A model generated the notes under the pieces. The model saw only the letters and a program-made list of their open reading frames with translations. It searched no databases and had not been told where the DNA came from. Positions 3-11,033 of a DNA stretch of 12,000 bases are shown here, piece after piece. The first letter of the stretch is position 1. Every line of letters starts with the position of its first letter. The position numbers were made by a program, and so were the translations under genes. Origin of the DNA: a bacterium (GTDB lineage: Bacteria > Hydrothermota > UBA3072 > B12-G15); assembly GCA_003646055.1 (NCBI GenBank), contig QNDZ01000035.1:1-12000 (forward strand), read 5' to 3'.

Positions 3-629
3 CTGTTCACAAAATACTGGGCGGAGAAGTATTCCCCTATTTTTTACAAATTTCTATCAGTTTTCTCAAGGATAAAACCATATGTATTCTTCCTGATTCT
101 ACTTGTTCCCCTTTTCTTTAAGAGAGTAGGATATGCAGTTGCACTGATAGGTGGGACTGGAATAGCAATTGAACTGCTTTCAATCTTCCAGTTCCAGATG
201 ATTGTGGGTGGTGCCTATATCCACATTGGTCTCCTTGTGGGTATCTTCATGCTTGGACTTGGGGTGGGTTCCTATATCTTTGAAAAAATACCCCAGAACA
301 GGTTCAATCCCCTTCTGTTTCCTTTGTTGATACCTTCACTGCTCCTTGTGTTATTTATAAGCAAACTACCCCCATACCTTGTATTTTTGCTCTTTCCAGG
401 GAACCTTTACACGGGTATGCTTGTTGGATACACATATGGAAGCGCAACAGCAGGTATGGGAGGAAAATACAGGAATTCAGCAGCCCTTGTTTATACATTT
501 GACCTGACGGGTGCAGCAGTGGGTTCATTCCTCGTAAGCATGATATTTATTCCCATGTATGGCATAAGCCCCACCGTTTACATAATGGTGGGGCTCTGTA
601 TTGCAGGATTTTTGAGGTTTATTATCTGA
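3..629 (+). CDS. C-terminal part of a polytopic membrane protein, spermidine-synthase-like family (partial, 5' end outside window)
   Basis: The frame is open from the first bases of the window to a TGA at 627-629, so the true start lies upstream; the internal ATG at 198 is not a natural start because coding-like sequence continues before it. About 208 residues are visible and they form at least five hydrophobic segments. The pattern GGTGIAIELL, then YIHIGLLVGIFMLGLGVGS, and near the end YTFDLTGAAVGSFLVSMIFIP, matches what I know of the membrane domain of 'fused MFS/spermidine synthase' proteins (an early G-IE-L helix, GLL--FM-GL-LG, and a late Y--DL-GAA-G). The cytosolic synthase domain, if present, would be before the window. 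Substrate and function are unknown. It converges on and overlaps the 111-residue gene by 8 bp. The family assignment is from memory of the motif, not a search. Confidence 0.6.
   Translation: MFTKYWAEKYSPIFYKFLSVFSRIKPYVFFLILLVPLFFKRVGYAVALIGGTGIAIELLSIFQFQMIVGGAYIHIGLLVGIFMLGLGVGSYIFEKIPQNRFNPLLFPLLIPSLLLVLFISKLPPYLVFLLFPGNLYTGMLVGYTYGSATAGMGGKYRNSAALVYTFDLTGAAVGSFLVSMIFIPMYGISPTVYIMVGLCIAGFLRFII
567..595. terminator. Perfect inverted repeat at a convergent gene junction, possible bidirectional terminator
   Basis: AGCCCCACC (567-575) pairs with GGTGGGGCT (587-595); the stem can extend inward by GTT/AAT, including one G-U pair, to 12 bp with a 5-base loop. It lies inside the last codons of the upstream membrane-protein gene and 27 bp beyond the stop codon of the leftward operon. 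Neither side has a clean T-run, so intrinsic termination is uncertain. The position suits a transcription stop or an mRNA 3'-end protector for the leftward operon. Confidence 0.4.
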
Positions 630-957
630 AGAACATCCCTATAACACCAGCAACAATGGTGATGAAGCCAACGGGAACGGAGATTCCAAGCATCCCATTC
701 TTTACCTTTTTCTTCGTTTCTTTGTCCTTAATTGCCATGGTTATGATTTCCATAATAAGGATTGCACCAGCAATCAGCCCCATTAAGCCCATAAAGAAAA
801 GTGGTGGATGGACAATGTAGGAAAGCCCACGGAGAAAGACCACGATACCGATGGGTATCTTCAATCCCTCAAGGGATTTAAGGGAATCCTTAAACACATC
901 AACATTCCTCAGGATGTCCATAATAAGTATCATTCCACCTAAAATCAAAAATTCCAT
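622..957 (-). CDS. Small integral membrane protein of unknown function, last gene of the gcvPB-mutL operon
   Basis: I do not recognise this 111-residue protein. It reads as four hydrophobic segments, at about residues 2-17, 33-49, 52-76 and 89-110, with a short charged loop DKETKKKVK (78-86) between the third and fourth. The ATG at 957 has an upstream GGAGG; that SD sits directly after the TAA stop of the preceding gene, only 9 bp away, so translation is probably coupled. It is the last gene of a tightly packed five-gene operon. No signal peptide, metal motif or catalytic residue is apparent. A role as membrane anchor or partner for the soluble products of the operon is inferred from position only. 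The 3' end overlaps the convergent membrane-protein gene by 8 bp. Confidence 0.75.
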   Translation of the reverse strand: MEFLILGGMILIMDILRNVDVFKDSLKSLEGLKIPIGIVVFLRGLSYIVHPPLFFMGLMGLIAGAILIMEIITMAIKDKETKKKVKNGMLGISVPVGFITIVAGVIGMFFR

Positions 958-966
958 ATCCCCTCC

Positions 967-2091
967 TTATTCTTCAATGATTTCTACATTTGCCCTTGGC
1001 AGGGTTATCCTCTCTCCATTATCAGTTTCAACCACAAGAACCCTCACCTTTGCCTCTGTTTCTATCTTCTGGAGTTCTGGTGGGAGTTCCACAACCTTAC
1101 CAATATAACCGAAGTAGGGTGCCCTGATTATCCTGACAAGGTCACCAACTTCAAGCCCCCTTGCCTCCTTTATCTCAATATCTTCACCAGTTTCACCCTC
1201 AAGTGGTATTATAACCTCTGGCCTCATTACTCCCGCCCTTATCTGTGTTGCTCCATTCACAGAGGCGTGCTTCCCCTCTGAATCTGTGAGGAGTTTGAAT
1301 GCCTTGTTTGACATGTTCATTTTACCGAAGCCTTCGGTGATAATCAGGGTGATACCCTTCTGCTCATTCCCTGTAATGGCAACACCAATCTCATACCCAA
1401 GGAACTTTTTCAGGTCCATATCATCTATACCACCAACAACAAGTGCACTCATTCCCACCTTAACTGCCTTATCCAGTGCCTCTTTAGTTACGATGGAACC
1501 ACCTATACCTATTGCTCCCTTCAGACTGTCGTCTATCACATCGGGTGTAACAGGGTCTGAGGGTTTATCCACTATTCTCCTGATAACCCCCTTTGTCTCT
1601 CCACCTATTCCAAAAATCCCCTGGACAAAGGTTGCAACAGTCTCAACAATCACCCCTTCGTTCTCAATAACTTCAACAATTTTACCTTTTATATACGCAT
1701 CAATCTGGACAGGGATTGGGGGCTCCCTGATTATAAGCTGGCCCGTGATTGGAGAAACGGTCTCAATGGTTCCCTTCACAGGTGATTTTATCTGGGTTTT
1801 AAGGAACCTTCCAAACAGCCCCTTTGTTTCTGCAATCACCTCGTCCTTTTCAACAGGGTCTCCCTCTTTTTTCAGGATGAAGTCCTTCACTTCATCGGGC
1901 ATTATACCAAGTTTTCCCGCAAGGTTTATTGTCTGGACATCACCTGGAAGTTCAGTCTTTGCAACAATGGTATCGGGTTCAACCTCATCCCCGACCTTCA
2001 CCAGAACATTTCCCTTCAAGGGAAGTTTCCTCTCCTTCCTCACTATTGTCTTTTTTGTAACCTTTAGACCTGGTGTATATGCATGTGCCAT
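967..2091 (-). CDS. MutL-associated conserved protein with barrel-sandwich-like N-terminal half and KOW-like C-terminus
   Basis: This is a soluble 374-residue protein with no signal peptide or membrane segment. The N-terminal half is rich in short Gly/Val/Pro beta strands: LKGNVLVKVGDEVEPDTIVA (25-44), EGDPVEKDEVIAE (76-88) and KSPVKGTIETVSPITGQLII (102-121). The V--GD-V--D-I-A and SPV-G-I pattern is typical of barrel-sandwich hybrid folds such as biotinyl/lipoyl carriers and the RnfC N-terminus. I see no lipoyl or biotin attachment motif (no M-K-M). A middle segment, GAIGIGGSIVTKEALDKAV (192-210) then ALVVGGIDD, looks alpha/beta. Residues 313-335 (LEVGDLVRI...GYIGKVVEL) fit a KOW-type small beta barrel. 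The ATG at 2091 follows an SD whose first bases are the TAG stop of mutL, so the two are translationally coupled. Function is unknown; partnership with MutL is inferred from this coupling. Confidence 0.7.
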   Translation of the reverse strand: MAHAYTPGLKVTKKTIVRKERKLPLKGNVLVKVGDEVEPDTIVAKTELPGDVQTINLAGKLGIMPDEVKDFILKKEGDPVEKDEVIAETKGLFGRFLKTQIKSPVKGTIETVSPITGQLIIREPPIPVQIDAYIKGKIVEVIENEGVIVETVATFVQGIFGIGGETKGVIRRIVDKPSDPVTPDVIDDSLKGAIGIGGSIVTKEALDKAVKVGMSALVVGGIDDMDLKKFLGYEIGVAITGNEQKGITLIITEGFGKMNMSNKAFKLLTDSEGKHASVNGATQIRAGVMRPEVIIPLEGETGEDIEIKEARGLEVGDLVRIIRAPYFGYIGKVVELPPELQKIETEAKVRVLVVETDNGERITLPRANVEIIEE

Positions 2092-2100
2092 TTTATCCTC

Positions 2101-3894
2101 CTATGGAATTGAGGGGTAAACATCAAGTTCTGTGAACCATTCCTTCAGTTTCGCTATTCTCTTTCCGTGGTCTTCTGGTAGTGTGAGTGGCCTTCCCCTT
2201 CCATCTATTATTACTCCTACAACACCGCCTTCAAGTTTTGTCGTGACTGGCTTACCCTTGCCAGCACCAACATCAAACCCCTTTGCAGGGATAATCTCAG
2301 CCTCCACTGTCTCTCCAAGCCCCAGCTGTATAAGTTTCATTTCTCCATACTTCACCTGATATGTTTTGTCCCCGATGTTCACTGTGACAACAACCTGTCC
2401 TTCCTTTGCAGAGGTTCCCACAGGGACTATGGATGTTCCAAGTCTTATAAGACAATCCTTTTCAAATACCTCTGTTGCAGACCTCTCATGAACAGTTGAG
2501 AGAACACCAAGATGTGGCATCATAAAGATTGAGTCAACTGCAAGCCTTGTTATTCCCTGAACTTCAAAGGCATCTATCATCATGAGTGCTGATTGAACCC
2601 TTCTTGGTGCATGGGATAGTGCACCACCAGACCCAACCACAAGATTCAGGGTCATCATATTCACAAGGGTTTCACCTGTTGCTGTTTGGGCAAATGCATC
2701 AGATATAGTCCTTTCCTGTTGCACGCCCTTAAGTCCAACTGCCATTTCCTTGTGCTGGAGAAGTGCAAGTCTCAGTGCCTCTCTTGCAATTGCCTGCTCA
2801 ATCATCAATTCCTCAAGTGTCTGGGGGATTGTTGTGGGCCTTATCATCTTGTTTCTTATCCTGTTCCTCAGTTCAACCTCATCTATTGTAAAGGGAACCC
2901 ATCTCATAATGTTGGGTATCCCTGTTTCTGCAAGCACATTTGATATTGAGTAACTCATACCAAGGTTTGCACTCACTGTCCTGTTGAAAACACCCTGGAA
3001 TACAGAAAAGATGTCTGTTGTTGCACCACCAATGTCAACGCCAAGCACCTCTATGTTTTCTTTCCTTGCAACAGTCTCAATGAGGAGACCAACAGCACCA
3101 GGTGTTGGCATGATTGGCACATCTGTCCATGTCATGAGTTTTCTGTATCCAGGTGCATGAGCCATAACATGCTCCATAAACAGGTCGTGTATCTTGTCCC
3201 TTGCAGGTTTCAGATTCTCCCTTTCAAGCACAGGTCTCAAATTGTCAACAATGGAAAGGGCACTCTTTTTCTCAAGAATCTTTTTTATTTCCTCCCTTGC
3301 ATCCTTGTTGCCAGCATAAATAACAGGGAGGTCATATCCTGTTCCGAACCTTGGTTTTGGTTCAGCAGCAGCAATCAGTTCTGCAAGGTGAACAACATGG
3401 GATATTGTTCCTCCATCAACACCACCAGAGAGTAGTATCATATCAGGTCTCAGTCTCCTTATTAGTTCAATCCTCTCATGGTCCATCCTCTTATCATTGG
3501 TTGCAATAACATCCATTACAATGGCACCTGCACCAAGTGCTGCCCTTGCAGCAGATTCTGCTGTCATCTGCTTCACCACACCTGCCACCATCATCTGGAG
3601 ACCACCGCCTGCACTTGATGTTGACACGTATATATCAACACCCCTCTTATCCTGTGCAGGCTTTATGATTTTTTCACCATCAAGGATTTCAACACCTGTT
3701 AATTCCTCTACCTCCCTGATGGCATTCAGGACACCCTTGGTAACATCCTCAAAAGGTGCTTCAACAGTGGTTGGTGCTTCACCACGCACAACCAGCCTGT
3801 ATTCTTCACCCTTCTTCTCTATGAGGATTGCCTTTGTCGTTGTGCTTCCGCAGTCTGTTGCCAGTATCCTTTTTAAGTCTTTCTTTGTATTCAT
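2101..3894 (-). CDS. glmL: MutL/GlmL-type ATPase, accessory protein of B12-dependent amino-acid mutases (not the DNA-repair MutL)
   Basis: ASKHA-fold (actin/Hsp70/BadF-like) ATPase of the glutamate-mutase-associated MutL family. Two phosphate motifs are visible: DCGSTTTK (residues 14-21) and DIGGATTDI (287-295). The adenosine-side loop is GSGG (421-424). Family hallmarks include STSSAGGGLQMMVAGVV (about 91-107), SGGVDGG (156-162) and the terminal GVIIDGRGRPLTLP. Related proteins are thought to chaperone or reactivate adenosylcobalamin mutases such as glutamate mutase and ornithine aminomutase; no mutase subunit is encoded here. I chose the ATG at 3894 (597 residues) because AAAGGAGG lies 4 bases upstream; the in-frame TTG at 3909 would put that SD inside the gene. 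The first 89 bases overlap the end of the preceding 129-residue gene. Family assignment is firm; the substrate mutase is unknown. Confidence 0.93.
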   Translation of the reverse strand: MNTKKDLKRILATDCGSTTTKAILIEKKGEEYRLVVRGEAPTTVEAPFEDVTKGVLNAIREVEELTGVEILDGEKIIKPAQDKRGVDIYVSTSSAGGGLQMMVAGVVKQMTAESAARAALGAGAIVMDVIATNDKRMDHERIELIRRLRPDMILLSGGVDGGTISHVVHLAELIAAAEPKPRFGTGYDLPVIYAGNKDAREEIKKILEKKSALSIVDNLRPVLERENLKPARDKIHDLFMEHVMAHAPGYRKLMTWTDVPIMPTPGAVGLLIETVARKENIEVLGVDIGGATTDIFSVFQGVFNRTVSANLGMSYSISNVLAETGIPNIMRWVPFTIDEVELRNRIRNKMIRPTTIPQTLEELMIEQAIAREALRLALLQHKEMAVGLKGVQQERTISDAFAQTATGETLVNMMTLNLVVGSGGALSHAPRRVQSALMMIDAFEVQGITRLAVDSIFMMPHLGVLSTVHERSATEVFEKDCLIRLGTSIVPVGTSAKEGQVVVTVNIGDKTYQVKYGEMKLIQLGLGETVEAEIIPAKGFDVGAGKGKPVTTKLEGGVVGVIIDGRGRPLTLPEDHGKRIAKLKEWFTELDVYPSIP

Positions 3895-4195
3895 TGTTCC
3901 TCCTTTCAATCTCCCTTATCAAAAGTTCCACGTTTTCTCTTTTCTCCATAAGAACGGTGAATTCCCAATACTTCTTTGATGAAAAAAGCATCTGTACAAG
4001 GGGGTTAGCCATCACCATCAGTTGTGAGCCGATAAAACTGAGAGGTTTTGCCATCTCAAGAAAGAAGATGGCTGGTGCAACAAGCCCCCTCTCAACAATC
4101 TCCTGAGCAATATCCCCTATAAGTTTTACTGCCTTTTCCTGCGGGATATCCTCAGGCCCGTATATATTATAAAAATCCTGATTACCAGTGAACAT
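3806..4195 (-). CDS. Small conserved protein upstream of mutL, possibly membrane-associated
   Basis: A 129-residue protein between gcvPB and mutL. The core (about residues 20-100) has a helical region, RGLVAPAIFFLEMAKPLSFI (36-55), then SQLMVMANPLVQMLF (57-71) and KKYWEFTVLMEKRENVELLI (74-93), ending in a charged helix. I recall small proteins of this style (RGL--PA--FLE---PL, then a 'EN---LI--IE' tail) in many bacteria, but they have no assigned function to my knowledge. The start ATG at 4195 overlaps the gcvPB stop by 14 bp and has only a weak SD, which suggests coupling. The last 29 residues, very basic and polar (KERLKKDTGNRLRKHNDKG), are translated from DNA that also encodes the start of mutL. 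That tail may be non-conserved read-through. Membrane association is a guess from hydrophobicity. Confidence 0.72.
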   Translation of the reverse strand: MFTGNQDFYNIYGPEDIPQEKAVKLIGDIAQEIVERGLVAPAIFFLEMAKPLSFIGSQLMVMANPLVQMLFSSKKYWEFTVLMEKRENVELLIREIERRNNEYKERLKKDTGNRLRKHNDKGNPHREEG

Positions 4196-5618
4196 CCAGT
4201 TCTCTTACAGCCTTTGCCTCATCAAGCCTTTTTACAGGTGTATTCTGAGGCGCCTTCTTCAAAAGTTCAGGGTTTTCCTCTGCCTCTTTTGCTATTTTCT
4301 TCATTACACTGATAAATCTATCAAGAACCCATCTGGGCTCCGTTTCTGTTGGTTCTATCATCAATGCCTCTGGAACAATCAGGGGGAAGTATATGGTTGG
4401 TGCATGCATGTTGTGGTCGAGGATTCTTTTGGCAATGTCAAGTGTTCTCACCCCATACTTTTTGAATGTGTTCCCTGAAAGAACAAACTCGTGCATGCAT
4501 ATGGTATCATAGGGAAGGTTGTATGTGTCCTTCAGTTGCGTCATTAAATAGTTGGCATTGATAACAGCGGTCTCTGTAACCTTTTTCAGCCCATCAGGGC
4601 CATTTTCAAGTATGTAAGTTAGTGCCTTTATCATAACATTGAAGTGTCCATAAAAGGATATGATTTTACCAATGGAATCGGGTCTGTTGTAATCAAGGTA
4701 AAATCCATTTTCTCCCCTTTCTATCCTTGGCACAGGCAGGAATGGTTCAACCCTGTCACTCACACCAACACCACCTCCACCCGGTCCTCCACCACCATGG
4801 GGTGTTGAAAAGGTCTTATGGAGATTGTAGTGCAGAATATCAACCCCTGCCTTCCCGGGATAGAAGTATCCCATGAGGGCATTGAGATTTGCACCATCCA
4901 TATAGAGCAGAGCATCCTTTTCATGGAGCATCTCAGCCATTTCAACAATGTATGGTTCAAAGAGACCAAGGGTATTTGGATTTGTGAGCATGAGACCGGC
5001 AACCTCATCATCAAGATATTTTTCAAGAATGTCAGGGGTGAGAATACCCTTCTCTCCAGAGGTGACCTTCACGCTTACAAAACCAGCCCTGGTGGAGGAT
5101 GCAGGGTTTGTTCCATGAGCAGAATCAGGGATAAGAATCTTCTTTTTGTGATGATTCCCATGCTTATTATGGTAAGCCCTTATGAGGAGCAGACCAAGCA
5201 ATTCCCCATGTGCTCCAGCAGCAGGGTGGAGTGAAACATGTTTAAACCCTGTTAATTTACCAAGGTAATCCTGAAGATTGTAAATCAGTTCAAGTGCACC
5301 CTGAACCGTATCATCTGGCTGGAGTGGATGGAGATTTGTGAATCCCTCAAGGGAGGCCATTTCTTCATTTATCCTTGGATTGTATTTCATGGTGCATGAA
5401 CCAAGAGGGTAGAATCCCCTGTCAACATGGTAGTTGAGGGATGAGAGGTTTACAAAGTGCCTTACCACCTCGGGTTCACTCACTTCAGGAAGCGGAGGAG
5501 GGTTATCCCTCAGGAATTTTTCAGGGAAAAAATTCTTTATATCCACCTCTTCAACATCAAGGGGTGGAAGCCTGAACCCCTTTGCGCCTTGTCTGGATAT
5601 TTCCTTTAATAGTTCCAT
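4182..5618 (-). CDS. gcvPB: Glycine dehydrogenase (decarboxylating) subunit 2, GcvPB / P-protein beta subunit
   Basis: PLP-dependent half of the split P-protein of the glycine cleavage system. It decarboxylates glycine and passes the aminomethyl group to lipoylated GcvH; the reaction is reversible. The 478-residue length is normal for the B subunit. Visible motifs: the substrate loop GSCTMKYNPR (73-82), HPAAGAHGELLG (131-142), DSAHGTNPASS (165-175), the PLP-ring aspartate in YMDGANLNAL (D241), and the Schiff-base lysine K268 in HKTFSTPHGGGG. The PLP enzyme is therefore intact. It needs GcvPA, which is not next to it, although gcvPA commonly sits directly upstream of gcvPB. Start ATG at 5618 matches the usual N-terminus and lies only 6 bases from a promoter -10 element, with no SD, so the message may be leaderless. 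It is the first gene of a five-gene operon. Confidence 0.97.
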   Translation of the reverse strand: MELLKEISRQGAKGFRLPPLDVEEVDIKNFFPEKFLRDNPPPLPEVSEPEVVRHFVNLSSLNYHVDRGFYPLGSCTMKYNPRINEEMASLEGFTNLHPLQPDDTVQGALELIYNLQDYLGKLTGFKHVSLHPAAGAHGELLGLLLIRAYHNKHGNHHKKKILIPDSAHGTNPASSTRAGFVSVKVTSGEKGILTPDILEKYLDDEVAGLMLTNPNTLGLFEPYIVEMAEMLHEKDALLYMDGANLNALMGYFYPGKAGVDILHYNLHKTFSTPHGGGGPGGGGVGVSDRVEPFLPVPRIERGENGFYLDYNRPDSIGKIISFYGHFNVMIKALTYILENGPDGLKKVTETAVINANYLMTQLKDTYNLPYDTICMHEFVLSGNTFKKYGVRTLDIAKRILDHNMHAPTIYFPLIVPEALMIEPTETEPRWVLDRFISVMKKIAKEAEENPELLKKAPQNTPVKRLDEAKAVRELDVHW

Positions 5619-5741: not shown

Positions 5742-5894
5742 AAAATAGAAAATTGTCCAACCAAGGTATTACACCAGAAGAATTCATCACAGAAAAAGCA
5801 TCAGATTAAATATAATGCCCCTCAAAGTGTAAAGGTGGAGAAGGGGTGGACTTGTGTGAAACCTCTTTTCCATGAAACTATGAAAGGAGGACTT

Positions 5895-8105
5895 ATGAGT
5901 AACTTTAAAGAATATCCGTGGAGGATGTTCAGTGTTGTATTTTTATCCTTCATTGTTCCTGGTCTCTATGCCGACTGGGTGACGACCTCGATTGGTGTGG
6001 GTAATAATCCTCAGGCAATCGCTGTAGATACCCGGACCAATAAGGTTTATGTGGCAAATCGTGGTAGCAACACGGTTACGGTGATTGATGGTGCAACGAA
6101 TGATACAACCACGGTTCCTGTAGGAATAGACCCATGGGCAATCGCTGTAAATACCCGGACCAATAAGGTCTATGTGGCAAATCATGGGAGCGGTGATGTG
6201 ACGGTTATTGATGGAGCGACGAATGCGACGACCACGGTTCCCGCAGGAGATAAGCCTGATGCAATCTGTGTGAATCCCCGGACCAATAAGGTTTATGTGG
6301 CAGATAGCATTGGCTGTGTTACGGTGATTGATGGTGAAACGAATGATACGACCACGGTTGCGGTGGGTGATTGGCCTTATGGAATCTGTGTGAATCCGAA
6401 TACTGATAAGGTTTATGTGGCAAATAGTGGTAGCGACAATGTTACGGTGATAGATGGTGAGACGAATGATACGACCACAATAGGTGTGGGAACCAATCCC
6501 TGTGCGATTTGTGTGAATCCGAATACTGATAAGGTTTATGTGGCAAATAGTGGTAGCGACAATGTTACGGTGATAGATGGTGAGACGAATGACACGACCA
6601 CGGTTGCAGTGGGAACTGTTCCTTATGCAATCTGTGTTAATCCCAGGAGCAATAAGGTATATGTGATAAATCAGAGTAGTGACAATGTTACGGTGATTGA
6701 TGGTGCAACGAATGCGACTACCACGGTTGGAGTGGGAACTGTTCCCTATGCAATTTGTGTTAACCCCCGGACCAATAAGGTTTATGTGGCAAATAATGGC
6801 AGCAACACGGTTACGGTGATTGAAGAGGTTAAACCATATCAATCTCCACTCTCTTCTTTCATTACACCATTTGCCGATGATACGACAACAAATCATTTTC
6901 CTCAGTTCAACGGCTTCGCGGTAAACCAGAGGGGGCCTTGCAACACAAAGATAATGAATGTATTGTACAGGATTGATGATACCCGGGGACCCTGGAATGA
7001 GGCAAACATTACATATGCATCAGATACCTGCGTTGTCTGGCAGGCTCAGGCTGTGGATTCATTGACCACAGGTTTTCATACGCTCTATGTGGTTGCGCTT
7101 GATATGACATCGGCCACAATAAATATGACCGAGAACTTTACGGGTTCAATTGCATCATATAATTTTCTTGTTATGACATTACCTGATACCGCACCGCCTG
7201 TCATATATAACCTGTATCCACCTGCGGATACTGTTATAGCGGAGAGTCAGCCGGGAATAAGTGCACATTATTATGATGCAGTTTCAGGTATAGATACTGC
7301 GAGTATTGTGCTTACGATGAACGGTGATACGGTTGATTATGCAGTTATTACGGATTCAATGATAACTGCGTCGCCGTCCACTCCACTTGCTGACACAACC
7401 TACGATATGGTATTATCGGTGTCTGACGGTTTGGGTAATGAGGCGGTTGTATCCTGGCGTTTTGAGGTGGATGCGACATCACCGTTTATACCTATTTTAA
7501 TAAGTCCTGCAAATGATACCGTCATAACGACAAACACGCCGACATTTATCTGGGGAACGGTGACAAAAAATGAAGAGAGTAAATCAACACCTGTTACATA
7601 TACATTGCAGTGTGCGGTTGATTCAGGGTTTAATTATACGATAATAGATACATCTGGAGTATCAGATACAGTATTTACTGTGGTGGATGCAATGCCAGAA
7701 GGGATATATTACTGGCATGTGGAGGCGGTGGATAGTGCGGGTAATCATTCAGGGTATCAGAGTCAGCCGTTTAAGTTTACAGTCAGTCCTTCTGGTATTG
7801 ATACATCAGGTGATATGCCTCTTAGATTTTCTATTTCAATGATATACCCCAATCCGTTTGTAAATAGCACGAGGATAAAATATCAGTTGCCGTCAGATGG
7901 TGGTGGTAGAGTATACCTAAAGATATATAATTTATCTGGCACTTTGGTAAGAAAACTTGTTTATGATGAATATAGAAATGGTCTCTATTCAGTGATATGG
8001 GTTAGAAAGGATGATTATAATAAAGAGGTTCCTTCTGGAGTTTACTTTTGCAGACTTGCAGCGGGAAAATACAAAACAACGAGGAAGGTTTGTCTGATTA
8101 AGTAA
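5895..8105 (+). CDS. Secreted YVTN-type seven-bladed beta-propeller protein with Ig/FN3-like modules and Por/T9SS-like C-terminal sorting domain
   Basis: A 736-residue exported protein. Residues 1-26 form a signal peptide: basic-containing start, hydrophobic MFSVVFLSFIVPGL, cleavage after LYA. Residues 27 to about 311 contain seven blades of about 41 residues each (AI-VN-RTNKVYVAN-GS--VTVIDG-TN-TTTV-VG). The opening VTTSIGVG matches the strand that ends each blade, so the ring can close by the usual 'velcro'. Then come a linker, an Ig-like module (about 431-527), an FN3-like module (about 528-630, ending YYWHVEAVDSAGNHSG) and a final domain (about 640-736: YPNPF, then IYNLSGTLVRKL, then VPSGVYFCRL) typical of type IX secretion/Por sorting domains. 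I chose ATG 5895 because AAAGGAGG lies 4 bases upstream; GTG 5835 and ATG 5880 lack an SD. Likely surface binding or adhesion; ligand unknown. Its ACG/GCG/CGG codons differ from neighbouring genes. Confidence 0.9.
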   Translation: MSNFKEYPWRMFSVVFLSFIVPGLYADWVTTSIGVGNNPQAIAVDTRTNKVYVANRGSNTVTVIDGATNDTTTVPVGIDPWAIAVNTRTNKVYVANHGSGDVTVIDGATNATTTVPAGDKPDAICVNPRTNKVYVADSIGCVTVIDGETNDTTTVAVGDWPYGICVNPNTDKVYVANSGSDNVTVIDGETNDTTTIGVGTNPCAICVNPNTDKVYVANSGSDNVTVIDGETNDTTTVAVGTVPYAICVNPRSNKVYVINQSSDNVTVIDGATNATTTVGVGTVPYAICVNPRTNKVYVANNGSNTVTVIEEVKPYQSPLSSFITPFADDTTTNHFPQFNGFAVNQRGPCNTKIMNVLYRIDDTRGPWNEANITYASDTCVVWQAQAVDSLTTGFHTLYVVALDMTSATINMTENFTGSIASYNFLVMTLPDTAPPVIYNLYPPADTVIAESQPGISAHYYDAVSGIDTASIVLTMNGDTVDYAVITDSMITASPSTPLADTTYDMVLSVSDGLGNEAVVSWRFEVDATSPFIPILISPANDTVITTNTPTFIWGTVTKNEESKSTPVTYTLQCAVDSGFNYTIIDTSGVSDTVFTVVDAMPEGIYYWHVEAVDSAGNHSGYQSQPFKFTVSPSGIDTSGDMPLRFSISMIYPNPFVNSTRIKYQLPSDGGGRVYLKIYNLSGTLVRKLVYDEYRNGLYSVIWVRKDDYNKEVPSGVYFCRLAAGKYKTTRKVCLIK
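5985..6828 (+). repeat. Seven tandem 120-123 bp repeats encoding propeller blades
   Basis: Equivalent points in successive units fall at 6015, 6138, 6261, 6381, 6504, 6627 and 6750. The spacing is 123 bp except for one 120 bp step (6261 to 6381), where the third blade lacks one residue. Units are highly similar in DNA as well as protein. The stretch 6387-6469 is identical to 6510-6592 over 83 bases, pointing to recent duplication or gene conversion. An in-frame register is kept throughout. Confidence 0.95.
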
Positions 8106-8182: not shown

Positions 8183-9724
8183 ATGTTTCATGTTGACAAT
8201 AATGTAATTTCTTCTGATAATAGAGCTATGGAAAAGATCGGGAAAAAGGAACTGGATATACTCCTGAAACTGGGTGGTCATCTCTCCACAACAAAAGACC
8301 CTGAGGAGATGCTGAATTATCTCCTTGAAAGTGCAGAGAAATTGATGGATGCAGAGGCAAGTTCAATCCTCCTTGTGGATGAGAAAAGAAGAAAGTTGTT
8401 CTTTGCAAGCGCAAGGGGAGAGGCATCAGAAAAACTGAAGGGGCTTACTGTTCCATTTGGAGAGGGTATTGCGGGCTGGGTTGCAAGGGAAGGAAAACCC
8501 AGGATTGTGAATGACACTGAAAAGGAACCACAATTTTATAAAGGGATTGATAATGAAACAGGTTTCACAACAAAGTCTATCCTGTGTGTTCCATTGAAGA
8601 TGGGAGACAGGGTCTTTGGTGTGATTGAGATTCTCAACAGGAGGACAAAGGTTCCATACACAAAGGATGATTTGAGACTCCTTGAGATATTTGCTGGTAT
8701 AGCAACCAGAATCATTGTTGATTCAAAGCGCTTTCACAGGATAGTTGAGAGGGAAGAGGTATTAAGGAGTGAGATTGATTCCAGATATACCCTGATTGCC
8801 AGAAGTGAGGCAATGAAGAAGGTTCTTGAACTTGCAGACAGGGTTGCACCAACAGACACGACTGTGCTGATAACAGGTGAGAATGGAACAGGGAAGGAAC
8901 TTGTTGCACGATACATACACAGGAAGAGCAGGAGGAGGAACGAGCCCTTTATACCAGTTAATTGTTCTGCCTTTCCCTCAACATTGCTTGAGGCGGAACT
9001 CTTTGGTCATACAAAGGGTGCTTTCACAGGTGCCATATCTGAGAGGAAGGGAAGATTTGAGATTGCAGACCAGGGTACAATCTTCCTTGATGAGGTCTCT
9101 GAGATTCCAACAGAGATACAGGTGAAACTTCTCAGGGTTTTACAGGACAAGGTGATTGAGAAACTTGGTTCATCAGAACCCATATCTGTGGATGTGAGGG
9201 TGATTTCAGCAACAAATCAGAACCTTGAAAGAAAGATAGAAGAGGGAAAGTTCAGGGAGGATTTCTTCTTCAGGTTGAATGTGTTTCCAATATTTGTGCC
9301 TCCATTGAGAGAGAGGAAGGAGGATATCCCCATCCTTGCAGAGTATTTTCTTGGCCTCTTTGCAAGGGAGACAAAAAAGCCAGTGAAGTATATATCACAG
9401 GAGGTGATTGAACTTTTCAGGGGTTACTCCTGGCCTGGTAATGTCAGGGAACTCCAGAACACCATTGAAAGGGCGGTTGTGCTTGCAGAAGGGGATACCA
9501 TTTTACCAGAGCACATTATACTACCATCAAGGGTTAAAGACATGCCTGTGATTGGTTCAAAGAAACTCACAGAGGCAGTCAGGGAGTTCAAAAGGTATTA
9601 CATCAAGAAGATACTTGAAGAAGCGGGCTGGAACCAGAGAAAGGCGAGCCAGATACTTGGTATCCAGCCCACCTATCTCTCAAGACTTATCAAAGAATTG
9701 AATATCACCAGAAATAAAAAATAA
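8183..9724 (+). CDS. Sigma-54-dependent transcriptional activator with GAF sensor (NifA-like architecture)
   Basis: A 513-residue bacterial enhancer-binding protein. Residues about 35-180 are a GAF sensor domain (ASSILLVDEKRRKL, PFGEGIAGWVAREGKP, SILCVPLKMGDRVFGVIEIL). The AAA+ domain (about 203-445) has Walker A GENGTGKE (232-239), the sigma-54-contacting loop GAFTGA (279-284), Walker B GTIFLDEVSEI (298-308), and the arginine-finger segment FREDFFFRLNV (357-367). The C-terminus is a Fis-type helix-turn-helix (NQRKASQILGIQPTYLSRLI, 484-503). All parts needed for ATP-driven opening of sigma-54 promoters are intact. There is no receiver domain, so activity is probably set by a small ligand or redox signal at GAF. 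Neither ATG 8183 nor in-frame ATG 8228 (498 residues) has an SD; 8228 would start just before the GAF helix and is a fair alternative. No clear -24/-12 promoter was found nearby, so the regulon is unknown. Confidence 0.95.
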   Translation: MFHVDNNVISSDNRAMEKIGKKELDILLKLGGHLSTTKDPEEMLNYLLESAEKLMDAEASSILLVDEKRRKLFFASARGEASEKLKGLTVPFGEGIAGWVAREGKPRIVNDTEKEPQFYKGIDNETGFTTKSILCVPLKMGDRVFGVIEILNRRTKVPYTKDDLRLLEIFAGIATRIIVDSKRFHRIVEREEVLRSEIDSRYTLIARSEAMKKVLELADRVAPTDTTVLITGENGTGKELVARYIHRKSRRRNEPFIPVNCSAFPSTLLEAELFGHTKGAFTGAISERKGRFEIADQGTIFLDEVSEIPTEIQVKLLRVLQDKVIEKLGSSEPISVDVRVISATNQNLERKIEEGKFREDFFFRLNVFPIFVPPLRERKEDIPILAEYFLGLFARETKKPVKYISQEVIELFRGYSWPGNVRELQNTIERAVVLAEGDTILPEHIILPSRVKDMPVIGSKKLTEAVREFKRYYIKKILEEAGWNQRKASQILGIQPTYLSRLIKELNITRNKK

Positions 9725-10110: not shown

Positions 10111-10503
10111 TTAAGAGAGCCCTTCTTTCTTCCAGAGTCCGTGAACATTACAGTGTTCCCTTGCAACCACACTGCTTCCATGGGGAACAACAAATTTTGT
10201 CTCAGGGCTGTCCCCGGGTTTCAGGAACTTTCTGTGGACCACACCATCAACCACAAGTTCAATCCACTCAATATAATGGTTCTCCTCCATTGGGTGGGCA
10301 GTGTTCTCACCAACCTTAACAATATATCCATCATCTGTCTTCTGGATAAATGGGACGTGTTTCTCAACGGATGAATCAGCGGTTTTCTCCTCAAGAAGAA
10401 CCATGGGCTGTCCACAGCAAACAAGGGAATCCATACCTTCATGGATTACCTCAACTATGTTACCGCACACCTCACACTTCCAGATTTGCAGTTTTGCGGT
10501 CAT
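10111..10503 (-). CDS. dfx: Desulfoferrodoxin (superoxide reductase, two-iron type)
   Basis: Cytoplasmic enzyme that reduces superoxide to hydrogen peroxide without making oxygen, typical of anaerobes and microaerophiles. The 130-residue protein is full length. The N-terminal desulforedoxin-like domain has the four cysteines of centre I: C10 and C13 in CEVC, and C29-C30 in CCGQPM. The catalytic centre II ligands are present: H49 after the E47-K48 pair (EKH), H70 and H76 in [12 protein letters not shown], and C118 and H121 in [13 protein letters not shown] at 10503 has AAGGAGG five bases upstream. It follows the ferritin gene by 14 bp in the same operon and is followed by the decayed bcp. The electron donor (rubredoxin or similar) is not encoded here. 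Confidence 0.97.
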
Positions 10504-10517
10504 GTAATCCTCCTTTT

Positions 10518-11033
10518 TTAATTTTCTTCCTGAACAAGTGGTGTATATTTTCTTGCAGCAAGTTCCTTATCAAGCATAAACAAACCGTTTGTGTTATCCC
10601 CTATGAGTTTCAACTTATCAATAATCTCCCTGTCATTCTCCTCCTCCTCAACCTGCTCATTCACGTACCACTGGAGGAAGTTGTATGTTGCCCTGTCCTT
10701 CAATTTTTCTGCAAGGTCAACAAGCCCATTTATGCGCTCTGTTATGTGTTGCTCATGTTTCAATGTGGCCTCAAATGCATCAAGTGGGGAGTTCCATTCA
10801 TGCTGTGGTTCCTTTAACTCATACAGTTTCACCCTTGCACCCTGAGAGTGCATGTATCTGATAATCTTCATGGCATGGTCAACCTCTTCCTTGTACTGAA
10901 CCATCATCCAGTTGGCAAAACCCTTTAAGCCTATGGATTCAAAGTATGCATGCATGGATAGATAAAGATAAGCGGAAAAGAGTTCTTCATTGATTTGCCT
11001 GTTCAATTCTTCCTCCATCTCCTTCTTAATCAT
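10518..11033 (-). CDS. ftnA: Bacterial non-haem ferritin (FtnA type)
   Basis: Iron-storage protein that oxidises Fe(II) and stores it as a mineral inside a 24-subunit shell. At 171 residues it has the usual four-helix length. Ferroxidase residues fall at the same numbers as in E. coli FtnA: E17, Y24, E50, H53, E94, E126, Q127 and E130 (seen in [32 protein letters not shown] and VNEQVEEEE). No haem-binding methionine of the bacterioferritin type stands out. ATG at 11033 is preceded by AAGGAGG five bases upstream. It is the first gene of ftnA-dfx-(bcp), which couples iron sequestration to superoxide removal. Several TTGAC/GTCAA elements lie upstream and may take part in control. Confidence 0.97.

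Follow-up and report, generated by a model that had tools for sequence, protein, structure and literature searches.

A 12,000-nucleotide stretch of a Hydrothermota genome (positions 1 to 12,000 of contig QNDZ01000035.1, assembly GCA_003646055.1; the whole stretch is referred to here as the window and its source as the host) carries on its minus strand an operon of five genes, in which a glycine decarboxylase subunit (GcvPB) and a long ATPase of the MutL family are accompanied by proteins of 129, 374, and 111 residues. The question raised by this locus is what a MutL-type ATPase does in such company. A preliminary description, made from the sequence alone, had suggested that the ATPase acts with its neighbors in a membrane-linked complex that handles metabolites or reactivates a cobalamin-dependent mutase. 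We find that MutL and the 129- and 374-residue proteins (termed s107 and B374, respectively) are the core of a module conserved in many phyla, and that this module is part of the same system as a membrane cassette built around DUF6754. This widespread bacterial system, in which three of the window genes are included, is apparently undescribed. We consider it probable that the cassettes transport nutrients, with specificities that differ among them, and share the ATP-dependent MutL-B374-s107 module.

Conservation of the s107-MutL-B374 module

When an alignment of s107 was used to scan the GTDB species contigs, 122 relatives were obtained from 131 pattern matches, a much wider family than the 39 relatives of an earlier homologue search, which had stopped there because its method requires shared 5-residue words. 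Neighboring genes were counted at the best 80 of these loci (the multi-phylum loci) with purpose-made profiles, on the same strand and within 1.5 kb. Gene calls at fetched loci were the longest open reading frames (ORFs), with starts and small genes approximate, and cluster sizes vary with the single-linkage thresholds applied. The 80 loci came from WOR-3, TA06, Zixibacteria, Fermentibacteria, Coatesbacteria, Marinimicrobia, Eisenbacteria, Poribacteria, Latescibacterota, Krumholzibacteriota, Planctomycetota and Scalindua, Myxococcales, Armatimonadetes, Calditrichaeota, and Bacillota; named relatives of B374 were from candidate division WOR-3, TA06, Edwardsbacteria, and others. Neighboring s107 and MutL genes were found at 67 of these loci, MutL and B374 were neighbors at 57, and the whole triad was present at 56, while GcvPB adjoined s107 at 29 and is a lineage-dependent neighbor of the module. 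Within the host phylum, B374 and MutL were each detected in 139 of 147 genomes, and five genomes were without both (Fisher P = 5.6e-6).

At the phylum loci with a long MutL, s107 adjoined MutL in 17 of 29 cases, and a GcvP gene was located within 2.5 kb in 15. Some phylum loci have the run gcvT-gcvH-gcvPA-DUF6485-gcvPB-s107-MutL, with identities confirmed for one of them (L057). The small, cysteine-rich DUF6485 protein (64-72 residues) was observed directly 5′ of gcvPB at L056, L057, L059, L067, and L068. The arrangement of the window operon is beyond chance, since the GcvPB-s107-MutL order recurs within the host phylum as well as outside it. The exception is the gene for the 111-residue protein, which had a single relative (L087) when 60 phylum loci and the window were clustered; it is lineage specific and lies outside the module core.

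A paralogous second MutL-B374 pair was also found, whose two genes lie side by side in some genomes and are joined in a single ORF elsewhere. Among the loci picked for fetching, nine ORFs of 839-990 residues matched both profiles (L071-L074 and L082-L086). The expectation that MutL does not act alone and has the 129- and 374-residue families as partners was thus upheld by the synteny across phyla, the fusions, and the co-absence. In all four fusions read, the B374-like part stops ahead of the KOW domain, and these represent a second, paralogous system. Two MutL-B374 pairs flank a single s107 at L141, L157, L159, L163, and L164 (Fermentithermobacillaceae and one further member of the Bacillota). 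A common function for the B374 neighbors at sites away from MutL was considered and rejected, as these genes (accA, era, a TMEM260-like protein, and others) share no theme.

A membrane cassette with DUF6754 is part of the same system

Clustering of the neighboring genes revealed (i) a protein of ~150 residues that adjoins s107, n3; and (ii) a run of four genes, n4-n8-n5-n7, termed the cassette. Pfam scans were performed on hand-picked neighbors, mostly large or flanking ORFs. By this analysis n4 was found to be DUF6754 (PF20539, E-value about 1e-124), and n3, n8, n5, and n7 had no Pfam or NCBIfam match over a cut-off. B374 and DUF6754 genes were adjacent at 35 of the 80 multi-phylum loci. In the host phylum, DUF6754 was present in 140 of the 147 genomes and its absence coincided with that of MutL or B374 (Fisher P = 0.0034), with MutL, B374, and DUF6754 jointly missing from three genomes, G126, G127, and G009. 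G126 and G127 belong to one genus of the host's order and are 94-95% complete; G009 is 77% complete.

Similar co-occurrence was apparent in 34 genomes of other lineages picked because they bear s107: MutL was detected in all 34 and DUF6754 in 33, with 116 DUF6754 matches versus 61 MutL matches when fragments and paralogues are counted. The closed genome of Candidatus Fermentithermobacillus carboniphilus (G178; CP062796) has 12 full cassettes, scattered, and six MutL matches, and as many as 27 DUF6754 matches were found in G166. The DUF6754 family occurs in 49 of 154 genomes of the class to which G178 belongs. An extra, short MutL of G178 (491-residue frame) holds the best PF13941 score.

The host itself (1.87 Mb in 277 contigs, 80.6% complete) has two tandem DUF6754-n8-n5-n7 cassettes on another contig, with a gene for lipoyl protein ligase (LplA) directly after them. 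In another genome of the phylum (L217) the order GcvPB-s107-MutL-B374-cassette-cassette-LplA is contiguous, as is gcvT-H-PA-PB-n3-s107-MutL-B374-DUF6754-n8-n5-n7-LplA at L119; therefore, the window holds the leading portion of a unit whose genes are separated in the host genome. It follows from the whole of this evidence that DUF6754 is part of the same system as s107-MutL-B374, and MutL-B374 very likely works with the cassette. The preliminary description was right in joining s107 and B374 to MutL; the larger half of the system, the DUF6754 cassette, lay outside its view. Among the papers searched, none named DUF6754, PF20539, PF13941, or DUF6485.

Leader RNAs and enzymes associated with the cassettes

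Leader RNAs at cassettes of the Bacillota provided an indication of function. At L240 a lysine riboswitch (84.8 bits, gathering score 30) is followed by a terminator-like hairpin and then the cassette, and at L182 the order is IclR-cassette-thiamine pyrophosphate (TPP) riboswitch-thiD-thiM-thiE. A T-box (Rfam RF00230, 106.5 bits versus a gathering score of 93) was identified at L194 immediately 5′ of the DUF6754 start. The strict core GGGTGGNACCGCG of this leader had three matches in 325 records, all on the same strand and directly upstream of DUF6754 genes (L194, L250, and L313, the last in another genome than the other two); a fourth, looser match of the GGGTGGNACCGCG type, at L279, is on the opposite strand. 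The specifier region is CGAAUGGA in all three leaders and may be read in the frame UGG, for tryptophan, or, shifted by one base, GGA, for glycine. Their T-box bulges are UGGC, UGGC, and UGGU; a glycine tRNA would call for a UGGA bulge. Published work describes the same combination of UGG specifier and UGGC bulge in the trpX T-box, ahead of the transporter gene of the tryptophan importer trpXYZ of Streptococcus suis (PMC9382623), and a U at that place of the bulge, opposite a G discriminator, in 46% of tryptophan T-boxes (PMC7778990). The likeness to trpXYZ is in the leaders; trpXYZ is an ABC (ATP-binding cassette) transporter, to which the DUF6754 cassette is unrelated. T-box specificity has served previously to predict transporter substrates (PMC2494555). 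A HEARO RNA (RF02033; L185, 7529-7745, minus strand) was also observed ~2.4 kb from a G178 cassette.

Enzymes encoded beside the cassettes fit nutrient transport. Among 24 loci read in G166, an amidohydrolase was the next same-strand gene, less than 100 bp past the cassette, at L194, L243, L245, L246, L247, and L251, with an M20 peptidase just ahead of the cassette as well at L251. A formiminotransferase-cyclodeaminase (FTCD) is located near the cassette of L237. The L183 cassette of G178 is followed after 17 bp by a creatininase and preceded by an RpiR-type regulator; in the same genome, L184 is flanked by an amidohydrolase and a prolyl oligopeptidase; and M20 peptidases flank L177, L178, and L181. 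Together, the leaders and neighbors indicate that tryptophan and lysine are probably among the cassette substrates, and that precursors of thiamine and compounds of the amide or peptide type probably are too. For the host, the likeliest substrate is suggested to be glycine (or lipoate), because both cassettes adjoin the lipoate ligase and MutL adjoins gcvPB; uptake of glycine in particular is a tentative assignment that we would sooner doubt than accept.

Protein architecture and a proposed mechanism

The MutL of the window has intact DCGSTTTK, DIGGATTD, and GSGG motifs, which we take to be the two phosphate motifs and the adenosine motif of ASKHA ATPases; these three were conserved in 93, 96, and 96, respectively, of 96 long MutL ORFs. 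The structural model of B374 (predicted local distance difference test [pLDDT] score of 86.5) displayed, by fold comparison, a beta-rich front, an RraA-like swivelling beta/beta/alpha domain, and a KOW domain. That of DUF6754 (from L124, pLDDT 82.6) consisted of a helix, an Fn3 domain, a second helix, a Rossmann-like domain, and further helices. In the two host cassettes, hydropathy analysis revealed six and five segments in n8, three and four in n7, two in DUF6754, and, in n5, a segment close to either terminus, to which one of the two copies adds a weak inner segment. Because of the basic residues beside the hydrophobic segments, which in n5 precede the first helix and follow the last, we infer that the n5 domain would be positioned outside the cell and the Rossmann-like domain of DUF6754 inside.

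These features are compatible with a mechanism in which s107, MutL, and B374 would serve as a cytoplasmic ATP-dependent module, usually of one or few copies, acting with the four-protein membrane cassette DUF6754-n8-n5-n7. The n8 and n7 proteins would form the membrane path, the external domain of n5 may bind the substrate, and the internal Rossmann-like domain of DUF6754 would couple to MutL-B374. ATP binding and hydrolysis by the actin-fold MutL would drive or reset the cycle, with B374, through its swivelling and KOW domains, as a moving adaptor. Transport of nutrients by the cassette is very likely in light of the regulation and neighboring genes. Whether MutL supplies energy or instead assembles the complex we regard as evenly balanced. 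In its fullest form, to which we give somewhat less than even chances, this model would add a new class to the primary active transporters, in which four-protein cassettes of differing specificity are powered by a shared actin/hydantoinase-fold MutL via a swivelling KOW adaptor; such a class would exist in parallel with, but unrelated to, ABC and energy-coupling factor (ECF) transporters across many bacterial phyla. A literature search on transporter ATPases of the ASKHA or hydantoinase type found no paper.

Weighing of the transport model and its alternatives

A number of observations count against the transport model. It derives from regulation and neighboring genes only, no component of the cassette or module resembles a known transporter, and the putative powering of transport by MutL stands at even chances. 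In a hand-compared subset of 66 of the 147 phylum genomes, MutL and B374 were neighbors in 28 and separate in 38; occurrence of the genes away from mutL had been named in advance as evidence against their partnership, yet both are nearly always present, and the two are considered linked because they are co-absent in five genomes. MutL matches outnumbered those of DUF6754 in six of the 34 s107-bearing genomes, and one of these, G161, had no DUF6754. Of the T-box leaders, L250 and L313 fall below the Rfam gathering score and are called T-boxes because they align with L194 over their length. The terminator fold of L194 was not better than shuffles (z = -0.69), and 60 further leader loci had no Rfam match at the gathering score (L275-L284 being outside the scan). 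Ten cassettes in total adjoin an amidohydrolase or M20 peptidase in G166 and G178, a raw count that includes whatever amidohydrolase background these genomes have. In G178 the enrichment of M20 peptidases near cassettes is weak: 3 of 12 cassettes have one within 2 kb (P = 0.024), and significance is lost at 5 and 8 kb. Many other cassette neighbors are unrelated (e.g., RNase HII, transposase, sigma factor, and GerAC).

The most serious alternative is that MutL-B374-s107 is a chaperone for assembly or maturation of the cassette, in the way that GlmL-type ATPases serve mutases, with the cassette itself a secondary transporter or nutrient sensor. MutL/GlmL is described as a chaperone in the reactivation of glutamate mutase (PMC4682846), the synteny and co-occurrence data agree equally well with such a role, and a single or few MutL serve many cassettes. 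No fact is fitted worse by it than by shared-module transport; fusion to B374 would not be required of a mere chaperone, nor would so constant a place beside the cassette (35 of 80 loci), though these objections are not decisive. We judge this explanation unlikely, at roughly one chance in a handful. By another proposal the module would serve lipoate, either in the uptake of lipoate or octanoate or in the lipoylation of GcvH. LplA is indeed beside the cassettes in the host, L191, L192, L217, L233, and L119, and among the multi-phylum loci LplA was found at 8 of 80 and gcvH at 14 of 80. However, the fetched flanks of the Marinimicrobia, Zixibacteria, Planctomycetota, and Bacillota loci had neither gcv genes nor LplA, and other cassettes bear lysine, tryptophan, or thiamine signals; for these reasons lipoate may hold for one cassette but not for the family, of which it is an improbable account.

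The role first proposed for the operon, reactivation of a B12-dependent mutase that would join amino-acid rearrangement to glycine metabolism, is the least probable and has very little left to commend it. MutL is a PF13941 member, and methylmalonyl-CoA mutase (PF01642, a model for which the controls responded) was detected in 102 of the 147 phylum genomes. By contrast, PF01642 was absent from the host (80.6% complete) and from 9 of the 10 genomes of its class, host included (the exception being G130), and 38 phylum genomes hold MutL, B374, and DUF6754 without PF01642; the dependence of MutL presence on PF01642 did not go beyond a weak trend (P = 0.058). The host yielded no carbon-skeleton mutase, and lack of a mutase had been named in advance as counting against the proposal; the models of glutamate mutase (PF06368) and lysine aminomutase (PF09043) gave no match in any of the 147 genomes, zeros that do not show absence because no control responded, and PF16552 was outside the search. 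The window MutL scored below the curated cut-offs for GlmL (236.3 versus 475), Or-4 (220.6 versus 600), and glmL_fam (176.6 versus 204.05). B12-binding domains occur in 144 of the 147 genomes and, being this common in general, argue neither way, while G126 and G127 are without MutL yet keep B12-binding proteins. The proposed link to cobalamin-dependent rearrangement is thus not sustained. That of a membrane-linked assembly handling metabolites fared better: the assembly is linked to the membrane, and metabolite handling by it is very likely.

Relationship to known systems and significance

The window MutL has its Pfam family (PF13941) and ATPase motifs in common with GlmL/MutL, the accessory ATPase of glutamate mutase (NF040745; Or-4, NF040744). 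It differs in that (i) it is ~600 rather than 450 residues in length and below all three NCBIfam cut-offs; and (ii) it is partnered with s107, B374, and DUF6754 and occurs without a detectable carbon-skeleton mutase. In logic, shared-module transport resembles the group II ECF transporters, in which several membrane components, scattered and with different specificities, share an ATPase module (PMC7755397 and others). The likeness is in logic only, as no homology was found: the ATPase is of the actin fold here and of the ABC type there, and a four-protein cassette stands in place of a single S-component. When the ABC-type ATPase (EcfA/A′) and EcfT were considered, the sole ATPase that Pfam identified in the module was MutL, and s107, B374, DUF6754, n5, n7, and n8 were without an ABC match. 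The likeness of B374 to RnfC is confined to a stretch of RnfC_N, in its beta-rich front, below the Pfam cut-off (23 versus 25.6 bits). DUF6754 is itself an existing Pfam family, whose partners, copies, and leaders are newly described here.

Nearly all genomes of the host phylum have the system, and it occurs in many uncultured lineages, yet its proteins are annotated as hypothetical, DUF6754, or glutamate mutase MutL. It would account for uptake of amino acids and cofactors in such bacteria and would remove a questionable B12 annotation from a large subfamily of MutL. If MutL powers transport, a further ATPase fold would be added to nutrient import, and the tryptophan-, lysine-, and thiamine-linked cassettes point to testable substrates.

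Organization of the window

All five ORFs of the operon were identified as previously described (Table 1), with no gap larger than 9 bp; in gene order the spacing is a 14-bp overlap, a 104-bp overlap, a 9-bp gap, and a 9-bp gap, where the 104-bp overlap of s107 and MutL is counted from a TTG at 3909 and is smaller if MutL begins at a later ATG. The family scores confirmed the identities given to GcvPB and MutL, the KOW-like nature of the 374-residue protein was evident from a motif over the cut-off, and the protein predicted to have four membrane helices displayed four hydrophobic segments. No Pfam or NCBIfam match was found for s107, and the 111-residue protein had sub-threshold matches only in these databases.

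Table 1. Genes of the operon and other features of the window
Feature	Position	Strand	Basis or remark
gcvPB, glycine decarboxylase subunit 2	4182..5618	-	NF003346, 709.9 bits (cut-off 441)
s107, 129 aa, small, hydrophobic core kept (PAIFFLE...KPLSFIGSQ)	3806..4195	-	Alignment of relatives
Long MutL, ~600 aa, actin/hydantoinase-type ATPase	2101..3909	-	PF13941, 427.1 bits (cut-off 27), E 9.9e-128
B374, 374 aa, C-terminal KOW motif	967..2091	-	KOW, 24.2 bits (cut-off 22.3)
111-aa protein, four hydrophobic segments	622..957	-	Hydropathy
Secreted YNCE-like beta-propeller	5835-8105	+	Near-identical repeats, Ig-like domain, sub-threshold Por_Secre_tail match
Sigma-54-dependent regulator	8183-9724	+	GAF domain, AAA, Fis-type helix-turn-helix
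Desulfoferrodoxin	10111-10503	-	Oxygen/iron-handling pair with adjoining ferritin-like protein
Ferritin-like protein	10518-11033	-	Adjoins desulfoferrodoxin

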